DNA of 42,796 nucleotides from Candidatus Uhrbacteria bacterium CG_4_10_14_3_um_filter_41_21 (lineage in GTDB: Bacteria > Patescibacteriota > Patescibacteriia > UBA9934), in contig PFJC01000046.1 in assembly GCA_002782865.1 (NCBI GenBank), positions 1 through 42,796 of the forward strand, given 5' to 3'. This document shows positions 4,324 to 41,141 of the stretch, one piece after another. Positions within the stretch are counted from its first letter, which is position 1. Each line of letters starts with the position of its first letter. Below the pieces are notes generated by a model. The model saw only the letters and a program-made list of their open reading frames with translations, ran no database searches and was not told where the DNA came from. The translations under genes and the position numbers were made by a program.

Positions 4324-4655
4324 TTTTTCAAATTGCCTTAATTGCCTTTTCATTATTTGGTATTTTGCATGTTTCTAGGCAGTACAGAAGTCAGAAGGTT
4401 AGCGTGTATTGGTTTTTAATCTGGTTTGTATTTTGGTTGATCGTTATTGCGGTTGCACTTTTTCCAGAGGCAACAGACATTATTGCGGATTATGTTGGTG
4501 TAGAAAAGGGAGCGGACTTAATCGCCTATATTGCGATTGTCGTGCTTTCCTACTCGATGTACCGAGTTTTAGTGAGGCTGGAAAGAATGCGTCAAGAGAT
4601 GACGGACTTAACTAGAAAGATAGCAATAGAAAAAGAAAAAAATAATGAAACCTAA
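4320..4655 (+). CDS. DUF2304-family small membrane protein
   Basis: The 111-residue protein has three predicted membrane helices (about 2-20, 29-48, 66-84) and a charged, coiled-coil-like C-terminus (RLERMRQEMTDLTRKIAIEKEKN). Size, topology and position directly after a GT2 gene match DUF2304, a family of unknown biochemical role that commonly accompanies polyprenyl-phosphate glycosyltransferases. It overlaps the preceding gene by 4 nt and the following one by 11 nt, so it sits in a tight operon. It may help recruit the glycosyltransferase to the membrane, which is inference. Confidence 0.75.
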   Translation: MIFQIALIAFSLFGILHVSRQYRSQKVSVYWFLIWFVFWLIVIAVALFPEATDIIADYVGVEKGADLIAYIAIVVLSYSMYRVLVRLERMRQEMTDLTRKIAIEKEKNNET

Positions 4656-5721
4656 AGTTGCAATAATTTATCTTCCATACAATAACCTCCGTTATATTCC
4701 GGAGGTTGCTGATTCATGGGTTGTTCAAGATTATCCGGCTGATAGGATAGCAATTTTAATAATTCCAAACGGAAGTAGCGATGGTTCTCAAGATTTTGTA
4801 AAAGATAATATTTTGCCAAGACAGGAAGTTGATTTGCCAGAAGTTATAATGATTGATGACGGAATAAATCATGGCTTTGCCGGTGGGAATAATTTGGGAA
4901 TTAAATGGGCATTGGAAAATGGTTTTGATTATGTTTTTTTAAATAATGGAGATTTAAAATTACATCCAAATACAATTTCAGAATTAGTAGAAGTAATGGA
5001 ATCAGATAAAAGCATTGGCTCGTCTCAGTCGCAGATTATGCTTTGGAATAATGAAAACACGGTAAACACAACCGGAGGAGTAATCCATGTAGCTGGTTAT
5101 GGTTATGCGCGTGACAACGGTAAGAATATTTTAGATATTAAAGTGCAAGATAAAGAAGAAATAGCTTACTGCTCGGGCGCGGCTGTTATTTATAGTTTGG
5201 CCGCGCTTAAAAAAGTTGGATTTTTGGAAAAAGGTTTTTTCATGTATCACGAGGATTTAGAGCTTGGACTGAGATTACGATTCGCGGGATATAAAAATGT
5301 ATTATCCATAAAATCTTTAGCTTTTCACGATTATAAGTTTGGAAAAAACTCGAAAATGTTTCAGTGGATTGAAACCTATCGTTATGTAGTTCTTTTGTCG
5401 TATATGAGGTTTAGGACTCTAGTTCTACTTTTTCCGCTTTTGCTGATGATTGAAATTGGTGTTTGGCTTATGGCTTTAAAGGGTGGTTGGCTCAAGGCAA
5501 AGTTTAAGGCATTAATCTCTTTTTGGTCACCAAAAAATTTAAGGTTAATAAAAAAAATGCGGAGGCGAGCACAACACCTAAGGGTTATTAAAGATAAGGA
5601 TTGGTTAAGGTTTGTGTCTGGTAGAGTTGAAGATCAAGGTAAAGAGTTACAACTGATGAATATTATCAATGATGTTATTGAGGGCATTTGGCAATTAGCG
5701 AAAAGGAATATTGATTGGTAG
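4645..5721 (+). CDS. GT2 glycosyltransferase, rhamnosyltransferase-like
   Basis: The 358-residue family-2 transferase shows PNGSSDGSQDF, the donor-site motif NHGFAGGNNLGI, FLNNGDLKL at the DxD position, and the acceptor-side motif MYHEDLELGLRLRFAGY. The NxGFAGGNN pattern is characteristic of WbbL/rhamnosyltransferase-like GT2 enzymes. A hydrophobic segment (about residues 248-272, LVLLFPLLLMIEIGVWLM) suggests membrane attachment. The rhamnose pathway genes at 17101-20286 could supply a dTDP-rhamnose donor. The gene ends just before the REP-flanked transposase that interrupts the glycosyltransferase series. Confidence 0.87.
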   Translation: MKPKVAIIYLPYNNLRYIPEVADSWVVQDYPADRIAILIIPNGSSDGSQDFVKDNILPRQEVDLPEVIMIDDGINHGFAGGNNLGIKWALENGFDYVFLNNGDLKLHPNTISELVEVMESDKSIGSSQSQIMLWNNENTVNTTGGVIHVAGYGYARDNGKNILDIKVQDKEEIAYCSGAAVIYSLAALKKVGFLEKGFFMYHEDLELGLRLRFAGYKNVLSIKSLAFHDYKFGKNSKMFQWIETYRYVVLLSYMRFRTLVLLFPLLLMIEIGVWLMALKGGWLKAKFKALISFWSPKNLRLIKKMRRRAQHLRVIKDKDWLRFVSGRVEDQGKELQLMNIINDVIEGIWQLAKRNIDW

Positions 5722-5765: not shown

Positions 5766-5810
5766 AATGTGGTCACTTAGTGACCACATTGGTAACTAAG
5801 TGACCACATT
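5766..5810. repeat. REP hairpin, upstream flank of the RAYT
   Basis: The 17-nt arms GTGGTCACTTAGTGACC and GGTAACTAAGTGACCAC pair with one mismatch around a 5-nt loop ACATT. The left half is also a short palindrome by itself (5766-5790). The transposase ATG begins immediately after the hairpin, at 5811. Confidence 0.85.
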
Positions 5811-6509
5811 ATGAGGAATATTGAGTTTATCACAAATGAATATTATCATGTATTCAATCGCGGAGTAGATCGGCGCGCTATATTTTTAGACGATCAGGAT
5901 TTATTTAGATTTTATAAGATGATGTACTTATTTAATGATGTGAATTATGAGAATCGTAGGGGTGATGAAGAAATAAATACTTTACTTCTGGCAAATTCTA
6001 ATGTTGATATAGTTTATAAAGATAAACTCATTCGCATATTGGGTTTCTGTCTGCGTCAAAACCATTTTCATTTGTTCGTTGAACAGTTAGTTGATGATGG
6101 AATTTCGAAATTTATGCATAAAATAGGATCTGTTTATTCAAAGAAGTTTAATAAAAAAAATAACAGAAAAGGAACTTTATTTGAAGATACATTTGAAGCG
6201 AGACATATAGATCACGATTCTTATTTTAAACATATTCTGCGTTATATTCATTTAAATGTCCTAGATGAGGAAATGCCTGAATGGCGCCAGGGCAAGATTT
6301 GTGATTGGGAGAAAGCTTTAAATATTTTGAATTCTAATCAATGGTCAAGTCACTTGGCATATGTGGGTATAAAACAGCAATTACCAATCATTGATGAAGG
6401 GTTTATAAATGAATATTTTGAATCAGTGGATGATTACACGGCTTTTTTAAGGGAATGGGCACAAGCAACAGATACAACGTGGTCATTTAGTGACCAATGT
6501 GGTAACTAA
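5811..6509 (+). CDS. REP-associated tyrosine transposase (RAYT, Y1/HUH family)
   Basis: The 232-residue protein has the core of the Y1_Tnp family: N-terminal YYHVFNRGVDRRAIF, the HUH metal motif NHFHLFVEQ and a downstream catalytic-tyrosine region (GSVYSKKFNKKNNRKGTLFEDTFEAR, shown here in part), followed by YIHLN. RAYTs cleave and join single-stranded DNA at REP hairpins, and this gene sits between two such hairpins. Its TAA stop (6507-6509) lies inside the downstream REP, so the repeat supplies the end of the reading frame. The reading frame is intact. It could be a domesticated single-copy gene or still able to mobilise REPs. Confidence 0.92.
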   Translation: MRNIEFITNEYYHVFNRGVDRRAIFLDDQDLFRFYKMMYLFNDVNYENRRGDEEINTLLLANSNVDIVYKDKLIRILGFCLRQNHFHLFVEQLVDDGISKFMHKIGSVYSKKFNKKNNRKGTLFEDTFEARHIDHDSYFKHILRYIHLNVLDEEMPEWRQGKICDWEKALNILNSNQWSSHLAYVGIKQQLPIIDEGFINEYFESVDDYTAFLREWAQATDTTWSFSDQCGN

Positions 6510-6520
6510 GTGACCACATT
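6479..6520. repeat. REP hairpin, downstream flank of the RAYT
   Basis: The arms GTGGTCATTTAGTGACC and GGTAACTAAGTGACCAC surround a 5-nt loop AATGT, which is the complement of the upstream copy's ACATT. It overlaps the last codons and stop of the transposase and ends 4 nt before the next ATG at 6525. Confidence 0.85.
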
Positions 6521-6524
6521 AAAT

Positions 6525-7601
6525 ATGAAAATTGCTCAAGTTACACCAATTTATCCGCCGGCCCCTGGAGGTATGGGGAAGGTGGCAGAGGATTACACAT
6601 TGGCTTTTCGCGCTGCCGGGCACGAAGTTGATGTTTTTTTTCCTGATAAATACCCTGGAATTTTTAAGCACGGCCATGCGGCGATTGTTCCAAGTTTTCT
6701 TTGGAAATTACGCAGTTATGATGTTATTCATCTACATTTTCCATTTTATGGCAGTGATCATTTTATAGCGCTAGCATCATTAATTTGGAAAACACCACTC
6801 GTGATTACCTATCACATGAAAAATCAAGGAAGTGGTTTTTTAAGATTTTTATTTTTGGTGCACAAGCTGTGGGAATGGTTTGTAATGTGGCGCGCTTCAG
6901 CGGTTTTGGTAAGCTCGCTTGATTACGCCCGTTCTGTAAAATTAAAACATAAGAATTTAATATCAATGCCATTTTGGATTGATACTGAAAAGTTTCATTC
7001 AGAAGGAAAGATAGAAAGTCGAAATAAACTTGGAATTTCAATTAATCAAATAGTTTTTTTATTTGTTGGTGCCTTGGATCAAGCTCATTATTTTAAAGGA
7101 GTTGATATTTTGCTTAATGCTTGTTCAAAATTACGACTTGATAATTCTTGGCAATTAATTATTGTAGGAGATGGAAATCTTAAAGTTAGGTTTGAGGATT
7201 TGGCACGAGCTAAAAATTTAGAAAAAAAAGTTTTGTTTACAGGCAAGGTGTCTGATAAAGATTTACCTGATTATTATCGCGCGGCCGACATCCATATTTT
7301 ACCTGCAATTGATCGTTCGGAAGCGTTTGGTTTGGTAACGCTAGAGGCAGCCGCATCTGGCAAGGCATCGGTTGTTAGTGATTTACCTGGAGTAAGAACT
7401 TTGGTTGAGCATCAAAAAACTGGTTTAGTAATTCCGGTTAATGACGCTCAGGCTCTAGTGGTGGCATTGACTTGGTTGGTACAGCATAAAGACAAAATTT
7501 CAGAATTTGGCCAAAATGCGCGAAAAATGGCTGTGGATAAGTATAGTAAACAAATTATTTTACAAAAGTTGCAGCAGATTTATAAAGGCGGTAAGGTTTA
7601 G
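6525..7601 (+). CDS. GT4 glycosyltransferase
   Basis: ATG 6525 (MKIAQVTPIYPPAPGGMG) is used rather than 6510, whose first codons lie in the REP. The 358-residue protein has the GT-B layout: an N-terminal acceptor domain with a Gly-rich loop (PGGMGKVAEDY) and a C-terminal donor domain beginning near IVFLFVGALDQ, with the family-4 signature RSEAFGLVTLEAAASGKA (E-x7-E) and DLPGVRTLVE. It transfers a nucleotide-activated sugar to a growing surface glycan or glycolipid at the cytoplasmic membrane face. It is followed after 5 nt by a second GT4 gene. Donor and acceptor are unknown. Confidence 0.9.
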   Translation: MKIAQVTPIYPPAPGGMGKVAEDYTLAFRAAGHEVDVFFPDKYPGIFKHGHAAIVPSFLWKLRSYDVIHLHFPFYGSDHFIALASLIWKTPLVITYHMKNQGSGFLRFLFLVHKLWEWFVMWRASAVLVSSLDYARSVKLKHKNLISMPFWIDTEKFHSEGKIESRNKLGISINQIVFLFVGALDQAHYFKGVDILLNACSKLRLDNSWQLIIVGDGNLKVRFEDLARAKNLEKKVLFTGKVSDKDLPDYYRAADIHILPAIDRSEAFGLVTLEAAASGKASVVSDLPGVRTLVEHQKTGLVIPVNDAQALVVALTWLVQHKDKISEFGQNARKMAVDKYSKQIILQKLQQIYKGGKV

Positions 7602-12546: not shown

Positions 12547-14210
12547 AGGGTTGGAATTTGGAATTTGGAAGCTGGAATTTCAAGAAAACTGCTAGGCTAG
12601 TAATATTGGTTATTTATTTTTTATCAACTTTGTCACTCTCGGTTGGTACTTCTTTTTTTAATTCACCAGATGAAAACGCAAACTTTGTTTTTGCTGAGCA
12701 GTTTGCAAACAAACAAACTTTTAAAATTAATGATTCGATCAATTTAGAACTTGCTGGAATTGTTCATCCAAGAAGTTCGATTGCGCTTGCAGATTCGATT
12801 GTTCCGATTAGTTTCTTGGGACTTCCTTTTATTGCCGGGCTAATTGGGTCTGTTTTTGGATCAAATACCATGCTGTGGATAACTCCACTTTTGGCGCTTT
12901 TGTCAATATTAGCTTGGCGATCTTTGATATTAAAGTTTACAGATAATAAACAAATTGCAGATCTTTCCGCATTATTTTTAATGATTCATCCAGCGTTTTG
13001 GTTATATAGTGCCAGGGTGATGATGCACAACGTCGGATTTGTCGCGTTTTTAATTTTGTCACTTTGGTTTGCCTTTGTCGGGATTCGATCTTTTTGTTCC
13101 GGCTATGAGGCGATTAAAGGGGAAAAAATCCTGGATTGGTCAGGTTCAGGAATAATGCTCGGACTGGCTTTGAGTTTTCGAACATCGGAAATTATTTGGT
13201 TAACAATCATTACAATCGCCTTATTAATTGTTTACAGAAAATTTGTCAGCTGGAAAAATCTGGGCACATTTTTAATATCGTTGCTAATCGTTTTGTCAGG
13301 TTTCGGAGCTTTGAATTATTCTACCTATGGTTCGCCATTTGAAACTGGTTACACGATTAAGAAATCTGACATGATCGATTCCCCCCAGTTATGGGAGGAT
13401 CAAGAGGGGCAGATCGATGAAGTCGATGCGATCGATCACATCATTAATGTTATCCCGTTTGCAAATTATTTGTTTCCTTTTGGCTTTCACGAAAGAAATA
13501 TCATAAATAATGTTTGGGCTTACGGATTTTTGCTTTATCCATGGATGACTGTGCTGGCGATTGTCGGTTTGATATTTGTGGTTCGTGAAAAAAAGTGGCG
13601 TGAATATATTTGGATTACACTCGGTTTGTCAGTTTGGTTGGCAATTGTTTATGGTAGTTGGAAGTTTAATGACAACCCTGATGCCGGTGTTATCACGCTC
13701 GGCAATTCTTATGTCCGATATTGGTTACCGCTTTTTGTGCTTGGGTCTGCATTTTGCGCTGTTGGAGTTCAGAAGATTTCAGAATTAGCAAAAAATAAAT
13801 GGCAGATGGTCATTAAAGTGACGATCGTCATTTTAATGACCATTTCGTCAAGTATGCTCGTTTTATATGGCGAAGATGGTCTTGTAAAAACTAGACAGAG
13901 TTTGGTTGATATCCAAGTAAAACACGATATTATTATTGAACAAACATCAGAAGATTCTATAATCATTGTTGACATGGTGGACAAATATTTGTGGCCAGAC
14001 AGAAGAGTTGTTATGCCACTGCGCTCTGAATTAACATATTCATCTATTCCTAAAATGTTAGAACTAGCCGATGTTTATTATTTCGGTATTACTTTTCCAG
14101 AATCTGACATTAATTATTTAAATGATGTTAAACTTAAAAATCTCGGAGCTCAAATAGAAGAAATAGTTGAAATTGGCGACGAAACACTTTATCGAGTTAA
14201 AAATGATTAA
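12543..14210 (+). CDS. Polytopic membrane protein, GT39/GT-C glycosyltransferase-like
   Basis: The 555-residue protein has about 10-11 membrane helices. The first large loop contains NSPDENANFVFAEQ, resembling the acidic (DE) catalytic loop after helix 1 in GT-C enzymes such as PMT/ArnT, and the soluble C-terminal part is short. The donor would be a polyprenyl-phosphate sugar, which the GT2 at 3655 could make; that link is inference. The start overlaps the previous stop (ATGA). Residues 4-13 (WNLEFGSWNF) come from a GGAATTTGGAA-type repeat. It is the first of three overlapping membrane genes. Confidence 0.75.
   Translation: MKGWNLEFGSWNFKKTARLVILVIYFLSTLSLSVGTSFFNSPDENANFVFAEQFANKQTFKINDSINLELAGIVHPRSSIALADSIVPISFLGLPFIAGLIGSVFGSNTMLWITPLLALLSILAWRSLILKFTDNKQIADLSALFLMIHPAFWLYSARVMMHNVGFVAFLILSLWFAFVGIRSFCSGYEAIKGEKILDWSGSGIMLGLALSFRTSEIIWLTIITIALLIVYRKFVSWKNLGTFLISLLIVLSGFGALNYSTYGSPFETGYTIKKSDMIDSPQLWEDQEGQIDEVDAIDHIINVIPFANYLFPFGFHERNIINNVWAYGFLLYPWMTVLAIVGLIFVVREKKWREYIWITLGLSVWLAIVYGSWKFNDNPDAGVITLGNSYVRYWLPLFVLGSAFCAVGVQKISELAKNKWQMVIKVTIVILMTISSSMLVLYGEDGLVKTRQSLVDIQVKHDIIIEQTSEDSIIIVDMVDKYLWPDRRVVMPLRSELTYSSIPKMLELADVYYFGITFPESDINYLNDVKLKNLGAQIEEIVEIGDETLYRVKND
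12550..12584. repeat. GGAATTT simple repeat at the start of a CDS
   Basis: TTGGAATTTGGAATTTGGAA and a following GCTGGAATTTC reiterate a 7-mer. The tract lies just after the ATG at 12543 and is translated as the odd aromatic N-terminus WNLEFGSWNF. It looks like a repeat that landed at a gene junction, here captured as coding sequence. Confidence 0.55.
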
Positions 14211-16004: not shown

Positions 16005-16028
16005 TGAGATTGTTGCAAAGTGAAGTTG

Positions 16029-16090
16029 TTAGCTTATAGCTTGTAGTTATTAGGTTAAGCCTAATTGCTATCAGCTAATAGCTAAAAGCT
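16029..16090. repeat. AGCT-family intergenic palindrome, copy A
   Basis: The left half reads TTAGCTTATAGCTTGTAGTT, the centre is the palindrome AGGTTAAGCCT, and the right half is AGCTAATAGCTAAAAGCT. It folds as an imperfect hairpin and ends 4 nt before the ATG of the HIT gene at 16095. Three further copies lie at 19371, 28181 and 29343. Confidence 0.75.
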
Positions 16091-16094
16091 TTAT

Positions 16095-18834: not shown

Positions 18835-19374
18835 ATGAAAAAAATAGAAACCAGCATCCCAGATTTATTTGTAATTGAGCCGACTGTTTTTGAAGACGAG
18901 CGTGGTTTTTTCTTTGAGTATTATAATGAAGAAAAGTTTAAAGAATTTGGAATTAATTTTGATTTTAAACAAGCGAATCATTCAAAGTCAGTAAAGGGAA
19001 CGCTCCGCGGTATTCATTTTCAACTACCGCCAAAAGCGCAAGCAAAGTTGGTTCGTTGCTCAGCTGGTAGGCTTTGGGATGTTGCTGTTGATTTGCGACC
19101 AAATTCTCCAACTTATAAAAGATGGTTTGGTATTGAGCTTTCAGCTACGAATAAAAAAATGCTTTTTGTACCGGTTGGTTTTGGACATGGATTTTATGCG
19201 CTCGAGGCTTGTGAGCTTCAGTATCAAGTTTCAAATACATTTGATAAAAGTTTAGACGCCGGTGTGGCTTATAATGATCCGGAGCTTGGAATTGATTGGC
19301 AAATAAGCGGTGATCCTATTTTATCTGAGAAGGACAGGGCATTGCCATTTTTAAGTGACAGCGAAGGTTTTTAG
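18835..19374 (+). CDS. rfbC: dTDP-4-dehydrorhamnose 3,5-epimerase
   Basis: The 179-residue cupin enzyme shows the family pattern: DERGFFFEYYNEEKF, the catalytic His in LRGIHFQLPP, KLVRCSAGRLWDVAVDLR, and the VPVGFGHGFYAL strand followed by YQVSNTFD. It epimerises C3 and C5 of the 4-keto sugar. Length matches the normal family size. Its TAG stop is the first part of the AGCT-family palindrome that separates it from rfbD. Confidence 0.95.
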   Translation: MKKIETSIPDLFVIEPTVFEDERGFFFEYYNEEKFKEFGINFDFKQANHSKSVKGTLRGIHFQLPPKAQAKLVRCSAGRLWDVAVDLRPNSPTYKRWFGIELSATNKKMLFVPVGFGHGFYALEACELQYQVSNTFDKSLDAGVAYNDPELGIDWQISGDPILSEKDRALPFLSDSEGF

Positions 19375-19431
19375 CTTATAGCTTATAGCTTTTAGGAATT
19401 CCTAATAGCTAGGGGCTAACAGCTAACAGCA
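19371..19431. repeat. AGCT-family intergenic palindrome, copy B
   Basis: It starts on the rfbC stop codon with TTAGCTTATAGCTTATAGCT, has the palindromic centre AGGAATTCCT, and ends with GGCTAACAGCTAACAGC, one base before the rfbD ATG. It fills the entire intergenic gap, so the hairpin would form in the mRNA between two genes of one pathway. Confidence 0.8.
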
Positions 19432-20286
19432 ATGAAAATTATAATTACTGGCGCACAAGGAATGCTAGGCCAACAACTAGTTGAGGTTTTTAAAAATGCT
19501 GGGCATGAAGTGATTTCAGCCAAGCGTCAAGATTTAGATATTACAAACAAGGATCAAGTTTTGAGTTTTGTCCAAAATCAGAAACCCGATGTTATTATCA
19601 ATGCTGCTGCTTATAACTTTGTTGATAAAGTTGAGGATGCAGAATTTTATCCACTTGCTTTAGCAATTAACGCTGACGGTCCTCGGAATCTGGCTTTAGC
19701 CGCAAGGGAGAACGGCGCATTGGTAGTGCATTACAGTAGTGATTATGTTTTTGAGGGCACAAAACAGGATGGATACGATGAAAATGATGAACCGCGACCA
19801 ATCTCAAAATATGGCCAGACAAAGCTTGAAGGTGAGAAGGCAATACAAGAATCAACTGATAATTATTATATTTGTAGAACGGCAAAGATTTTTGGAGCCC
19901 CAGGATCGGGTAGCAATATAAAAGAATCTTTTCCATCTTTGATGTTGCAAATCGCTAAAGAAAAACCAGAGCTGAAGATAGTGGATGAGGAATTTGGGTC
20001 TCCGACTTATGTTGTAGACATTGCCCAAGCTACTTTAGAGATGATTAAAGATAGTGTCCCAAGCGGGATTTATCATTTGGTGAACGAAGGCGAGCCAGTA
20101 ACTTGGTATGGATTTGCTAAGGAAGTTTTTGATATAGCTGGCGTTACTACACCTTACAATCCGATTTCAAGTTCGGAGTTTAATCCTCGTCCAGCTGCCA
20201 GGCCGGTAAATTCAAGTTTAAAAAATACAAAGTGGAAAAAACTGCGCCCTCGACTTGAAGCGTTGCGAGAATTTTTGGAAAAATAG
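19432..20286 (+). CDS. rfbD: dTDP-4-dehydrorhamnose reductase
   Basis: The 284-residue SDR begins IITGAQGMLGQQLVEVF (NADPH-binding GxxGxxG), has INAAAYNFVDKVEDAE, a YSSDYVFEGTKQDGY segment and the catalytic YGQTKLEGE (YxxxK). It reduces the 4-keto group to give dTDP-L-rhamnose, completing the pathway encoded from 17101. Other pathway enzymes are adjacent, which supports the assignment over related reductases. The gene ends facing a minus-strand Nudix gene. Confidence 0.93.
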   Translation: MKIIITGAQGMLGQQLVEVFKNAGHEVISAKRQDLDITNKDQVLSFVQNQKPDVIINAAAYNFVDKVEDAEFYPLALAINADGPRNLALAARENGALVVHYSSDYVFEGTKQDGYDENDEPRPISKYGQTKLEGEKAIQESTDNYYICRTAKIFGAPGSGSNIKESFPSLMLQIAKEKPELKIVDEEFGSPTYVVDIAQATLEMIKDSVPSGIYHLVNEGEPVTWYGFAKEVFDIAGVTTPYNPISSSEFNPRPAARPVNSSLKNTKWKKLRPRLEALREFLEK

Positions 20287-28183: not shown

Positions 28184-28246
28184 CTCATAGCTGTTAGCTC
28201 ATAGCTGTTAGAAAAACTAAAAGCTAGTTGCTAAAAGCTAAAAGCT
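28181..28246. repeat. AGCT-family intergenic palindrome, copy C
   Basis: It begins on the mraY TAG with TAGCTCATAGCTGTTAGCTC, has an A-rich centre, and ends with AGCTAAAAGCTTT. It fills the gap to the ftsW start (GTG 28249). Unlike copies A, B and D, its centre is not a sharp palindrome. Confidence 0.75.
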
Positions 28247-28248
28247 TT

Positions 28249-29340
28249 GTGCTATCAAAACCATCTGACAAATCATTTTTATTTTTTGTGCTAGGCATGA
28301 CCATCTTTGGCCTTGCTATTTTGGCTTCAGCTTCCAGTCCGCTAGGTTATGAGCGTTTTGCTGATAGTTATTATTATTTAAAACATCAATTAACTCTTGG
28401 TGTATTGCCTGGAATTGTGGCAATGCTTATTTTTGCTAAAATTCCGTATCAGTCATATCGCAAGTATGCAACAGCAATGCTGGCTGTTTCAATCGGGCTT
28501 TTGATTTTAGTTTTTGTACCAGGCATTGGAACTGATTTTGGAACATTTGCCCACAGCTGGGTTCAGTTTGGTAGTTATTCATTTCAGCCGGCCGAGATTG
28601 CAAAGCTAACTTTTTTAATTTATCTAGCTGCTTGGTTAGAGCAAAGATCAGATGATTTAAAAACTTGGGAAACTGGGCTTTTGCCGTTTTTAGCGGCGCT
28701 GGGGATAATTTCGATTTTAATGTTACTTCAGCCTGACTTAGGAACTCTTTCAATTATCGTGGCCATTGCCTTTATTATGTATTTTGTGGCCGGCGGGAAT
28801 GTCACCCATTTAATTGGACTCGGCGTGATGGCCTTTGGTGCTTTTATAGTGTCAATTAAAATGTCACCCTATAGGTTTGAGCGTTTTACAACTTTTTTGC
28901 ATCCCGAGTTAGACCCACGGGGAATTGGATATCAAATAAACCAGGCTTTGCTTGCAATTGGATCTGGTGGATTTTTTGGAAGAGGCTATGGCCATTCACT
29001 CCAGAAGTTTCAATATTTACCAGAAGTTGTCGGGGATTCAATTTTTGCCGTTATGAGCGAGGAGCTTGGTTTTATTTTTACTGCCGCCTTTGTGATATTA
29101 TTTTTATTGATGTTACTTCGAGGAATCAAAATCGCAGAAAATTCAACTGATAATTTTGGTAAGTATTTGGTAATCGGCATAATCGCCTGGTTTGGTGTGC
29201 AGGCATTTGTGAACATTGGCGCAATTGTGGGACTGATGCCACTGACCGGTGTGCCGCTTCCATTTCTTAGTTACGGCGGAACTGCTCTCACGGTTTCACT
29301 TGCAGCGGCCGGAATTGTTATGAATGTTTCAAGAAAATAG
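28249..29340 (+). CDS. ftsW: SEDS-family glycosyltransferase FtsW
   Basis: GTG 28249 (then LSKPSDKSFLFFVLG) is chosen; the TTG at 28228 is inside the repeat, and no ATG lies before helix 1. About ten helices are seen, with the SEDS motifs: SAS at the end of helix 1 (ILASASS), AEIAKL, LLQPDLGT, YQ(I)NQALLAIGSGGFFGRG and GVPLPFLSYGGTA. SEDS proteins polymerise lipid II; placement between mraY and murG favours FtsW over RodA. 363 residues is a normal length. It ends at a TAG next to repeat D. Confidence 0.93.
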   Translation: MLSKPSDKSFLFFVLGMTIFGLAILASASSPLGYERFADSYYYLKHQLTLGVLPGIVAMLIFAKIPYQSYRKYATAMLAVSIGLLILVFVPGIGTDFGTFAHSWVQFGSYSFQPAEIAKLTFLIYLAAWLEQRSDDLKTWETGLLPFLAALGIISILMLLQPDLGTLSIIVAIAFIMYFVAGGNVTHLIGLGVMAFGAFIVSIKMSPYRFERFTTFLHPELDPRGIGYQINQALLAIGSGGFFGRGYGHSLQKFQYLPEVVGDSIFAVMSEELGFIFTAAFVILFLLMLLRGIKIAENSTDNFGKYLVIGIIAWFGVQAFVNIGAIVGLMPLTGVPLPFLSYGGTALTVSLAAAGIVMNVSRK

Positions 29341-29342
29341 CC

Positions 29343-29411
29343 TTTAGCTTATAGCTTATAGTTATTAGATCGATCTAAAAGCTAACGGCTAACAGCTAAA
29401 AGCTAATAGCT
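29343..29411. repeat. AGCT-family intergenic palindrome, copy D
   Basis: It starts TTAGCTTATAGCTTATAGTT, has the perfect palindromic centre AGATCGATCT, and ends with AACAGCTAAAAGCTAATAGCT right at the murG ATG (29412). It occupies the whole gap between ftsW and murG. Confidence 0.8.
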
Positions 29412-30479
29412 ATGTCAAAACATATTCTAATGACTGGTGGCGGAACATTAGGGCCGGTAACACCACTACTTGCCATAGTTCGAGTTTGGCAAAAAAGAGA
29501 TTCAAATATTCAAGTTTCTTGGATTGGTACACCTGGTGGAGCTGAACGAGCTTTGGTGGAATCAATGCATATTCCTTTTGAAACTATTTATGCTCCTAAG
29601 TTTGACAGGGATAGGCCTTGGCTTTGGCCATTTATTCCATTTTTCTTGATAGTAAGCTGCATCCAGGCGTTCGCATATCTAAAAATGAGTCGGCCAGATA
29701 TTGTTTTTACAGCCGGTGGTTATGTAAGTGTACCTGTTGTTTGGATAGCTTGGTTGCTTAGGATTCCTTCCTGGGTACATCAATTGGATGTCAAACCTGG
29801 ACTTGCAAATAAAATAATGGCGCCTTTTGCTAAAAAAATTAGTGTAACTTGGAGTGACTCTGCTGAAAGTTTTTCATCGAAAAAGACTTCAGTTGTTGGC
29901 GGAGTTGTTCGGCCGGTAGTTTTAGACGGTGATAAAGAACGAGCGCGCGATTTGTATCAATTGGATGCAAGTAAGCCAACTTTACTTGTGATTGGTGGCG
30001 GAACAGGTGCTCAATCAATCAATGATGCTTTGGCAGTAATCGGGCCCGAGTTAATTGGCAAAATGAACGTTATCCATTTGACCGGTAAAGACAAAATGAC
30101 CGATGAATTGCAAAATATTGCTGAAAACTATGTGGCTTTAGAATTTTTAGGTGAAGGCATAGCTGATGTTTTTGCCTTGTCGGATTTTGTTGTCTCACGC
30201 GCTGGTATGGGAACATTGATTGAGTTAGTGGCGCTTAAAAAACCGTGCATAATTATTCCGCTTCATAATTTTGATCAGTTGCATAACGCCAAGATGTTGG
30301 AAGATCAAAGCGCGGCTGAAGTTTTGTGGAGTATAAATCCGCAGATTTTAAAACAATCAATATTAAATTTGAGCGAGGACGACATTTTACAAAAGCAACT
30401 CTCTCGTAGACTAAGTTTATTATTTCCAACATATGGCGCAGAGGAGATTGTGACAAAGGCTTCGGAGATGATTAAATAA
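29412..30479 (+). CDS. murG: Undecaprenyldiphospho-muramoylpentapeptide beta-N-acetylglucosaminyltransferase
   Basis: The 355-residue GT28 (GT-B) enzyme has VFTAGGYVSVPVV, the lipid-I side hydrophobic patch (PWLWPFIPFFLIVSC), and the donor-site pattern VVSRAGMGTLIELVALKKPCIIIPL followed by FDQLHNAKML. It makes lipid II from lipid I and UDP-GlcNAc. The N-terminal loop is GGGTLGPVTPLL instead of the usual GGTGGHxxPA, so the normally invariant His is Pro. Gene order mraY-ftsW-murG supports the assignment. The transcript probably ends at the hairpin at 30529. Confidence 0.93.
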   Translation: MSKHILMTGGGTLGPVTPLLAIVRVWQKRDSNIQVSWIGTPGGAERALVESMHIPFETIYAPKFDRDRPWLWPFIPFFLIVSCIQAFAYLKMSRPDIVFTAGGYVSVPVVWIAWLLRIPSWVHQLDVKPGLANKIMAPFAKKISVTWSDSAESFSSKKTSVVGGVVRPVVLDGDKERARDLYQLDASKPTLLVIGGGTGAQSINDALAVIGPELIGKMNVIHLTGKDKMTDELQNIAENYVALEFLGEGIADVFALSDFVVSRAGMGTLIELVALKKPCIIIPLHNFDQLHNAKMLEDQSAAEVLWSINPQILKQSILNLSEDDILQKQLSRRLSLLFPTYGAEEIVTKASEMIK

Positions 30480-31179: not shown

Positions 31180-31256
31180 GCACCGGTAGCTCAGCCCGGT
31201 AGAGCAAAGGCCTTTTAAGCCTGTGGTCGTGGGTTCGAATCCCACCCGGTGTACCA
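31180..31256 (+). tRNA. tRNA-Lys (anticodon TTT)
   Basis: The acceptor GCACCGG pairs with CCGGTGT, the D-arm is GCTC...GAGC, the anticodon loop is C-T-TTT-A-A on the stem AGGC/GCCT, the T-arm is GTGGG-TTCGAAT-CCCAC, and the 3' ACCA is encoded. 77 nt. Confidence 0.95.
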
Positions 31257-31290
31257 GAAAAATCACACGATAAAATCGTGTGATTTTTCT
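31256..31290 (+). terminator. Terminator after tRNA-Lys
   Basis: AGAAAAATCACACGAT-AAA-ATCGTGTGATTTTTCT is a perfect 16-bp stem ending in a T-run, directly adjoining the tRNA CCA end. Confidence 0.88.
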
Positions 31291-31297
31291 GTCTGAG

Positions 31298-41088: not shown

Positions 41089-41141
41089 ATAAAGTGAGGC
41101 AACTTGGTTACCTCATTGGTAACCAAGTTGCCTCACTTTAT
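41089..41141. repeat. Perfect 24-bp inverted repeat, REP-like hairpin
   Basis: The 24-nt arms are fully complementary around a 5-nt loop TCATT. The inner part GAGGCAACTTGGTTACC-TCATT-GGTAACCAAGTTGCCTC has the same 17-nt arm plus 5-nt loop design, and shares ATTGGTAAC(C/T)AAGT, with the RAYT-flanking hairpin at 5769-5807. Confidence 0.8.

Follow-up and report, generated by a model that had tools for sequence, protein, structure and literature searches.

What kind of element is formed by a transposase gene lying between two similar repeats, and are or were its hairpins mobile in the surrounding genome? This question is raised by a locus in the 42,796-nt stretch of DNA analyzed here (hereafter the window), which corresponds to contig C29 of an 883-kb assembly in 59 contigs.

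A transposase gene between two copies of one hairpin

Positions 5766–6520 of the window are a REPtron, i.e., a Y1/HUH transposase gene between two copies of one hairpin. The gene (5811–6509, plus strand) encodes a RAYT-like protein of 232 aa with a Pfam Y1_Tnp match (E = 1.4e-9), and is flanked, according to Pfam, by a family 2 glycosyltransferase (GT2) gene on the left (4645–5721, plus strand) and a GT4-type glycosyltransferase gene on the right (6525–7601, plus strand). The upstream hairpin (5766–5810; hairpins are given without strand throughout) has 20-bp arms with one G·A mismatch and a 5-nt loop, ACATT, and abuts the ATG of the RAYT. The downstream hairpin (6476–6520; loop AATGT) carries one further C·A mismatch and a G·T wobble, and holds the stop codon of the gene (TAA, 6507–6509), as the first-pass annotation had recognized. 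That annotation had also described near-identical direct repeats with a 17 + 5 + 17 hairpin design. The near identity is borne out (89% over 46 nt between 5766–5811 and 6476–6521, and 91% over 45 nt when aligned as inverted), but the ends are better called inverted, because the two loops are reverse complements of each other. Likewise, the 5-nt loop stands but the arm length was approximate, the arms being 20 bp long with one to two mismatches, plus the wobble downstream. Both terminal hairpins are inverted dimers in which each arm is itself a small palindrome, similar to REPINs.

Chance palindromes can be ruled out as an explanation: none of 25 dinucleotide shuffles of the window yielded a hairpin at a threshold passed by five real hairpins, three of which belong to the RAYT hairpin family. 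Two more strong hairpins of unrelated sequence occur at 31255–31291, directly after a tRNA-Lys, and at 13806–13843, and another dispersed, partly palindromic intergenic repeat, composed of GCTAA/TTAGC units, is found at 16025–16094, 19367–19435, 28212–28250, and 29338–29415. Strong hairpins in mostly intergenic positions, one abutting a start codon and one overlapping a stop codon, could also represent transcription terminators or RNA-processing structures unconnected to the transposase. We consider this extremely improbable, since no T-run follows the hairpins on the coding strand (a single weak match was found on the minus strand), and both the distribution of the hairpins and one of their insertion sites, described below, argue against it. 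Known RNA families detected in the window were limited to two tRNAs.

The protein displays the expected features of a Y1/HUH transposase, including an NHFH motif (residues 84–87) and a catalytic-type tyrosine, Tyr145, within YIHLN, and H85, H87, Y145, and N149 are invariant across 62 homologues. The clade consensus for these motifs is NHFH and YIHLNP; the window protein itself reads YIHLNV, i.e., it has a V at the position following YIHLN where class 2 proteins have a P. The best PDB fold match of an AlphaFold model (pLDDT 93.2) was 4er8, a complex of a RAYT with a REP hairpin, and the IS608 transposase ranked lower. The final residues of the protein are encoded by the downstream hairpin, and its last dozen, which overlap that part, are predicted to be disordered. 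Scores against the NCBIfam REP_Tyr_transpos model (40.5 bits for the window protein, and 28.3 bits) fall under the curated cut-off of 80, and no C-terminal HTH or DnaA_C-like domain was detected by Pfam at E < 0.1 among the 62 members.

These features bear on a second alternative, namely that the 755-bp unit is an ordinary insertion sequence of the IS200/IS605 type, with solo hairpins as its decayed or internally deleted remnants. As in IS608 and ISDra2, whose transposases are also matched by the model, the unit is compact, has a Y1/HUH fold, and ends in hairpins. However, the protein carries YIHLN instead of YxxxQ, its closest fold match is a RAYT and not IS608, and no tnpB ORF was found adjoining the window RAYT.

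Hairpin families are private to their RAYT

About 11 related hairpins were identified in the 883-kb genome (four on C29, two on C53, two on C14, others on C20, C33, and C57, and one doubtful on C7), a count obtained from pattern and BLAST searches, so that diverged copies may have been missed. These copies fall into two types. Type A (GTGGTCAC...) brackets the window RAYT and includes a 98% copy on C33, while type B (GAGGCAACTTAGTTACC...) brackets a second RAYT (C53:8852–9562) that is about 55% identical to the first and has its own hairpin pair. Hence, the genome holds two RAYT/hairpin lineages, not one. The small palindrome with a shared core that had been noted near the window start is present as a solo monomer hairpin at 129–159, with 14-bp arms and a 3-nt loop, and its core, GTGGTCACTTAGTGACCAC, exactly matches one of the arms in the type A dimer. 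The hairpin at 41089–41141 is likewise present and related, with perfect 24-bp arms and the 5-nt loop TCATT, but it had been grouped with the window RAYT and is instead of type B, i.e., the type of the second RAYT. A short IS200-type TnpA is also encoded near a contig end of this genome (L001, C48:8234–8596; 138 aa; Y1_Tnp 1.3e-30); it is unrelated to the hairpin family, and was ruled out as its mobilizer as no family hairpins lie nearby.

Among eight dimeric copies, paired changes on both sides of the stem were found at 9 of 20 stem pairs. Cells changed on both sides numbered 19, vs 6.8 expected, a value reached in none of 500 shuffles, and shifting the partner by 1–3 columns abolished the signal. 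This confirms the compensatory changes that were thought to keep the stems paired, with the caveat that template-switch correction of palindromes can also yield paired changes without selection.

Next, we evaluated the distribution of the hairpins across genomes. The first-pass annotation had called for a search for further copies and a comparison with relatives lacking a RAYT. Further copies were found, the core pattern occurring 27 times in the window's genome (both arms and strands counted) vs once for a reversed control pattern, and the 144 relatives contained 0–3 occurrences each, i.e., the control level. We then searched 12 hairpin families in 18 genomes, nine of which were chosen as RAYT-free. 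Each family turned up in the genome of its own RAYT, and the resulting matrix was essentially diagonal, with no hairpin match better than E = 0.009 in the nine RAYT-free genomes. Neither of the conditions that the annotation had set for refuting mobility was borne out. The one clear cross-match, between genome G001 and the hairpin of G058, is explained by a CGTCAC core that the hairpin of the G001 RAYT itself shares. Terminators unconnected to the transposase would not be expected to have a sequence private to each RAYT, nor to fall to background numbers in genomes that lack one.

RAYT homologues were detected in at least 65 of 145 sampled relatives. To evaluate the association with private hairpins, 150-nt flanks upstream and downstream of each gene were compared, and a locus was counted if they shared an exact stretch > 13 nt, the value at the 99th percentile of comparisons between loci. 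Among 68 complete RAYT loci in related genomes, 55 passed this threshold and 13 did not. The figure of 55 is an upper one for hairpins because some stretches are longer duplicated flanks (e.g., L039 and L075); in control flanks 450 nt further out, the shared stretch never exceeded 11. In an independent GTDB set, mostly composed of Patescibacteria (Uhrbacteria, Nomurabacteria, Yanofskybacteria, and others) along with a few records titled Omnitrophota, Spirochaetia, Elusimicrobia, and Nanoarchaeota, 39 of 61 loci exceeded that set's own 99th percentile of 15, and 22 did not. With a stricter hairpin-to-hairpin match (≥12 of 13 central bases), 37 of 69 loci qualified, and at these the median start of the downstream hairpin is 1 nt upstream of the stop codon's end, and in 19 cases the hairpin overlaps the gene. 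The more alike two RAYTs are, the more alike are their hairpins (Mantel r = 0.27, 0 of 5000 permutations, n = 48). Of the 48 units, eleven were picked by eye, and one unit, L003, came from the center of a long hairpin instead of an arm, a choice that makes the result weaker, not stronger. The arrangement of a gene with its private hairpin is thus clade-wide, and RAYT and palindrome coevolve.

Dispersal of the hairpins

The genomic context of the two RAYTs was compared between relatives. In a dozen genomes of the same family, none of which has the RAYT, the GT2 and GT4 genes lie next to each other with at most 88 nt between them; several other genomes have no GT2 gene, and there the preceding small gene adjoins GT4. 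The second RAYT, flanked by an exonuclease-like gene and a regulatory region, likewise occupies a site without a RAYT in relatives, in which the two neighbors are separated by ~100 nt, although there is extra sequence beside it in G000. A type B hairpin is also found within murI on C20 (L004:1008–1871), where its in-frame translation is RGNLVTNEVTKLPQ. None of 10 orthologues has this hairpin, although the boundaries of the insertion are not fixed exactly because the orthologues vary in length at this site. This in-frame hairpin in a glutamate racemase gene, which is reminiscent of Rickettsia palindromic elements, is a further argument against a terminator function.

Dispersed copies were also identified in relatives, with a few to about 17 cognate hairpins per genome. 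A 36-nt hairpin of G014 is perfectly conserved at 14 scattered sites with unrelated flanks (CTTATCC follows in 13), alongside a sister set of three copies that differ by paired stem changes. Similarly, a 46-nt hairpin of G064 is identical at 3 to 4 sites on several contigs, again with unrelated flanks, and three hairpin variants in this genome are related by paired changes. Overall, RAYT-free operons, the murI copy, and perfect repeats at unrelated sites support the original suggestion that the hairpin family is or was mobile, with cleavage and transposition as the molecular steps that we infer to be responsible.

Absence of the unit from the same site in relatives would also be expected of an IS200/IS605-type insertion sequence. 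However, no near-identical second full-length copy of the gene was found, RAYTs within one genome being at most 71% identical (17 genomes), and no transposase remnants accompany the solo copies, which are exact hairpins. Along with the motif and fold evidence above, this makes an ordinary insertion sequence improbable. A third possibility is that the transposase has been domesticated, with hairpins kept for self-regulation or for a host role in single-strand DNA repair, and dispersal in this genome long past. The single, divergent gene copies and the few hairpin copies are consistent with such a scenario, as is the position of the upstream hairpin: a hairpin at the start codon is reported to block translation in IS200-type genes, and the one touching the RAYT start codon may similarly limit expression. 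We nonetheless consider domestication unlikely, as near-identical dispersed hairpins in G014, G064, and G058, together with the C33 copy (98%) in this genome, indicate that hairpins spread rather recently in the lineage.

Relation to known systems and proposed mechanism

Taken together, these results suggest that the locus is very probably a REPtron whose RAYT belongs to a divergent lineage rich in Patescibacteria, and in which a dimeric protein would cut its own hairpin and move hairpins, each RAYT recognizing only its own. To the observed architecture, privacy, dispersal, and coevolution, this reading adds a series of enzymatic steps, which we draw from RAYT and IS608 biochemistry (PMC8266576). 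The protein would act as a dimer on the hairpin in single-stranded DNA, during replication or repair, cut by means of Tyr145, either at the foot of the hairpin or within the spacer, and then rejoin the ends. RAYTs would in this way move hairpins, or REPIN-like dimers, to new sites, and the gene, together with its two hairpins, may occasionally travel as a 755-bp unit, which could be how it entered the glycosyltransferase operon. If each RAYT recognizes only its own hairpin, several pairs can coexist in one genome.

Among known systems, the RAYT/TnpA-REP REPtrons (PMC2817692; PMC6006769; PMC8266576) share with this element a HUH/Tyr protein (for which 4er8 is the best fold match), inverted flanking palindromes, and dispersed cognate palindromes. 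In both cases, each RAYT has one repeat family and coevolves with it, gene copies are single and divergent, and the repeats are dimeric, as in REPINs. Several features set the present elements apart. The protein score falls under the NCBIfam cut-off, there are about ten copies per genome where classical REPs number tens to hundreds, the palindromes are odd, perfect or nearly so, and have 3-nt loops, and the hairpins lack the GT[AG]G tag, its frequency at their 5′ foot (6 of 148 foot windows) being close to the shuffled expectation (4.4%). By motifs and length (about 238 aa, NH[YF]H, Y[IV]HLNP-type), along with a WSS tail motif and an aromatic F replacing W, the proteins resemble TnpAY1 subclass 2.1, or TIRYT (PMC6006769; PMC3733652). 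For subclass 2.1, however, no REP-like sequences were reported and the C-terminal domain is HTH or DnaA-like (Quentin 2018, PMC6006769), whereas hairpins are the rule here and Pfam detects no such tail. A longer relative of 285–309 aa, about 30–36% identical over the core, is encoded in many of the same genomes (e.g., G046 and G014) and may be of the TIRYT type. The Patescibacteria clade was not sampled in the REPtron papers, and RAYTs in Patescibacteria are mentioned neither in Quentin 2018 nor in the rest of the literature searched, which is not proof of novelty. We conclude that this is a real, clade-wide variant of the REPtron kind, for which we infer cleavage and transposition.

In G027, several RAYTs (L321, L322, L326, and L327) have different hairpins and a common dimer spacer, CCCTATAAACATTGAT, and hybrid dimers occur in which the hairpin of one RAYT is joined to that of another across this spacer. 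Dispersed hairpins in G014 (L198–L214) and G027 (L315–L320) have CTTATCC or TTATCCACAG on one side, which is DnaA-box-like. The DnaA-box-like motif TTATCCACA was found at 12 loci near RAYT genes vs 3 far from them, but is partly a confounder because unrelated intergenic regions of these genomes often carry it too, and was retained only where dispersed copies share it. We tentatively propose that Patescibacteria-rich RAYTs work without GT[AG]G and that, in part of the clade, the guide or strand-transfer signal might instead lie in a conserved spacer, CCTRTAAACATTGA, or a 3′ tag, CTTATCC, beside freely diversifying hairpins, so that half-elements could be swapped between RAYTs, as in the hybrid dimers of G027. 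In the window's own genome, CCTRTAAACATTGA is not enriched (1 vs 4 in the control), and hence does not explain the window element.

Patescibacteria genomes are very small and streamlined, yet RAYT homologues are common among them, and most full-length ones examined are accompanied by a private palindrome pair. The in-frame hairpin in murI indicates that such insertions reach coding genes. With more than 100 natural protein/hairpin pairs, this collection could reveal how these enzymes read hairpin sequence, and provides material to study the persistence of a selfish or domesticated single-strand transposase in genomes undergoing reduction.
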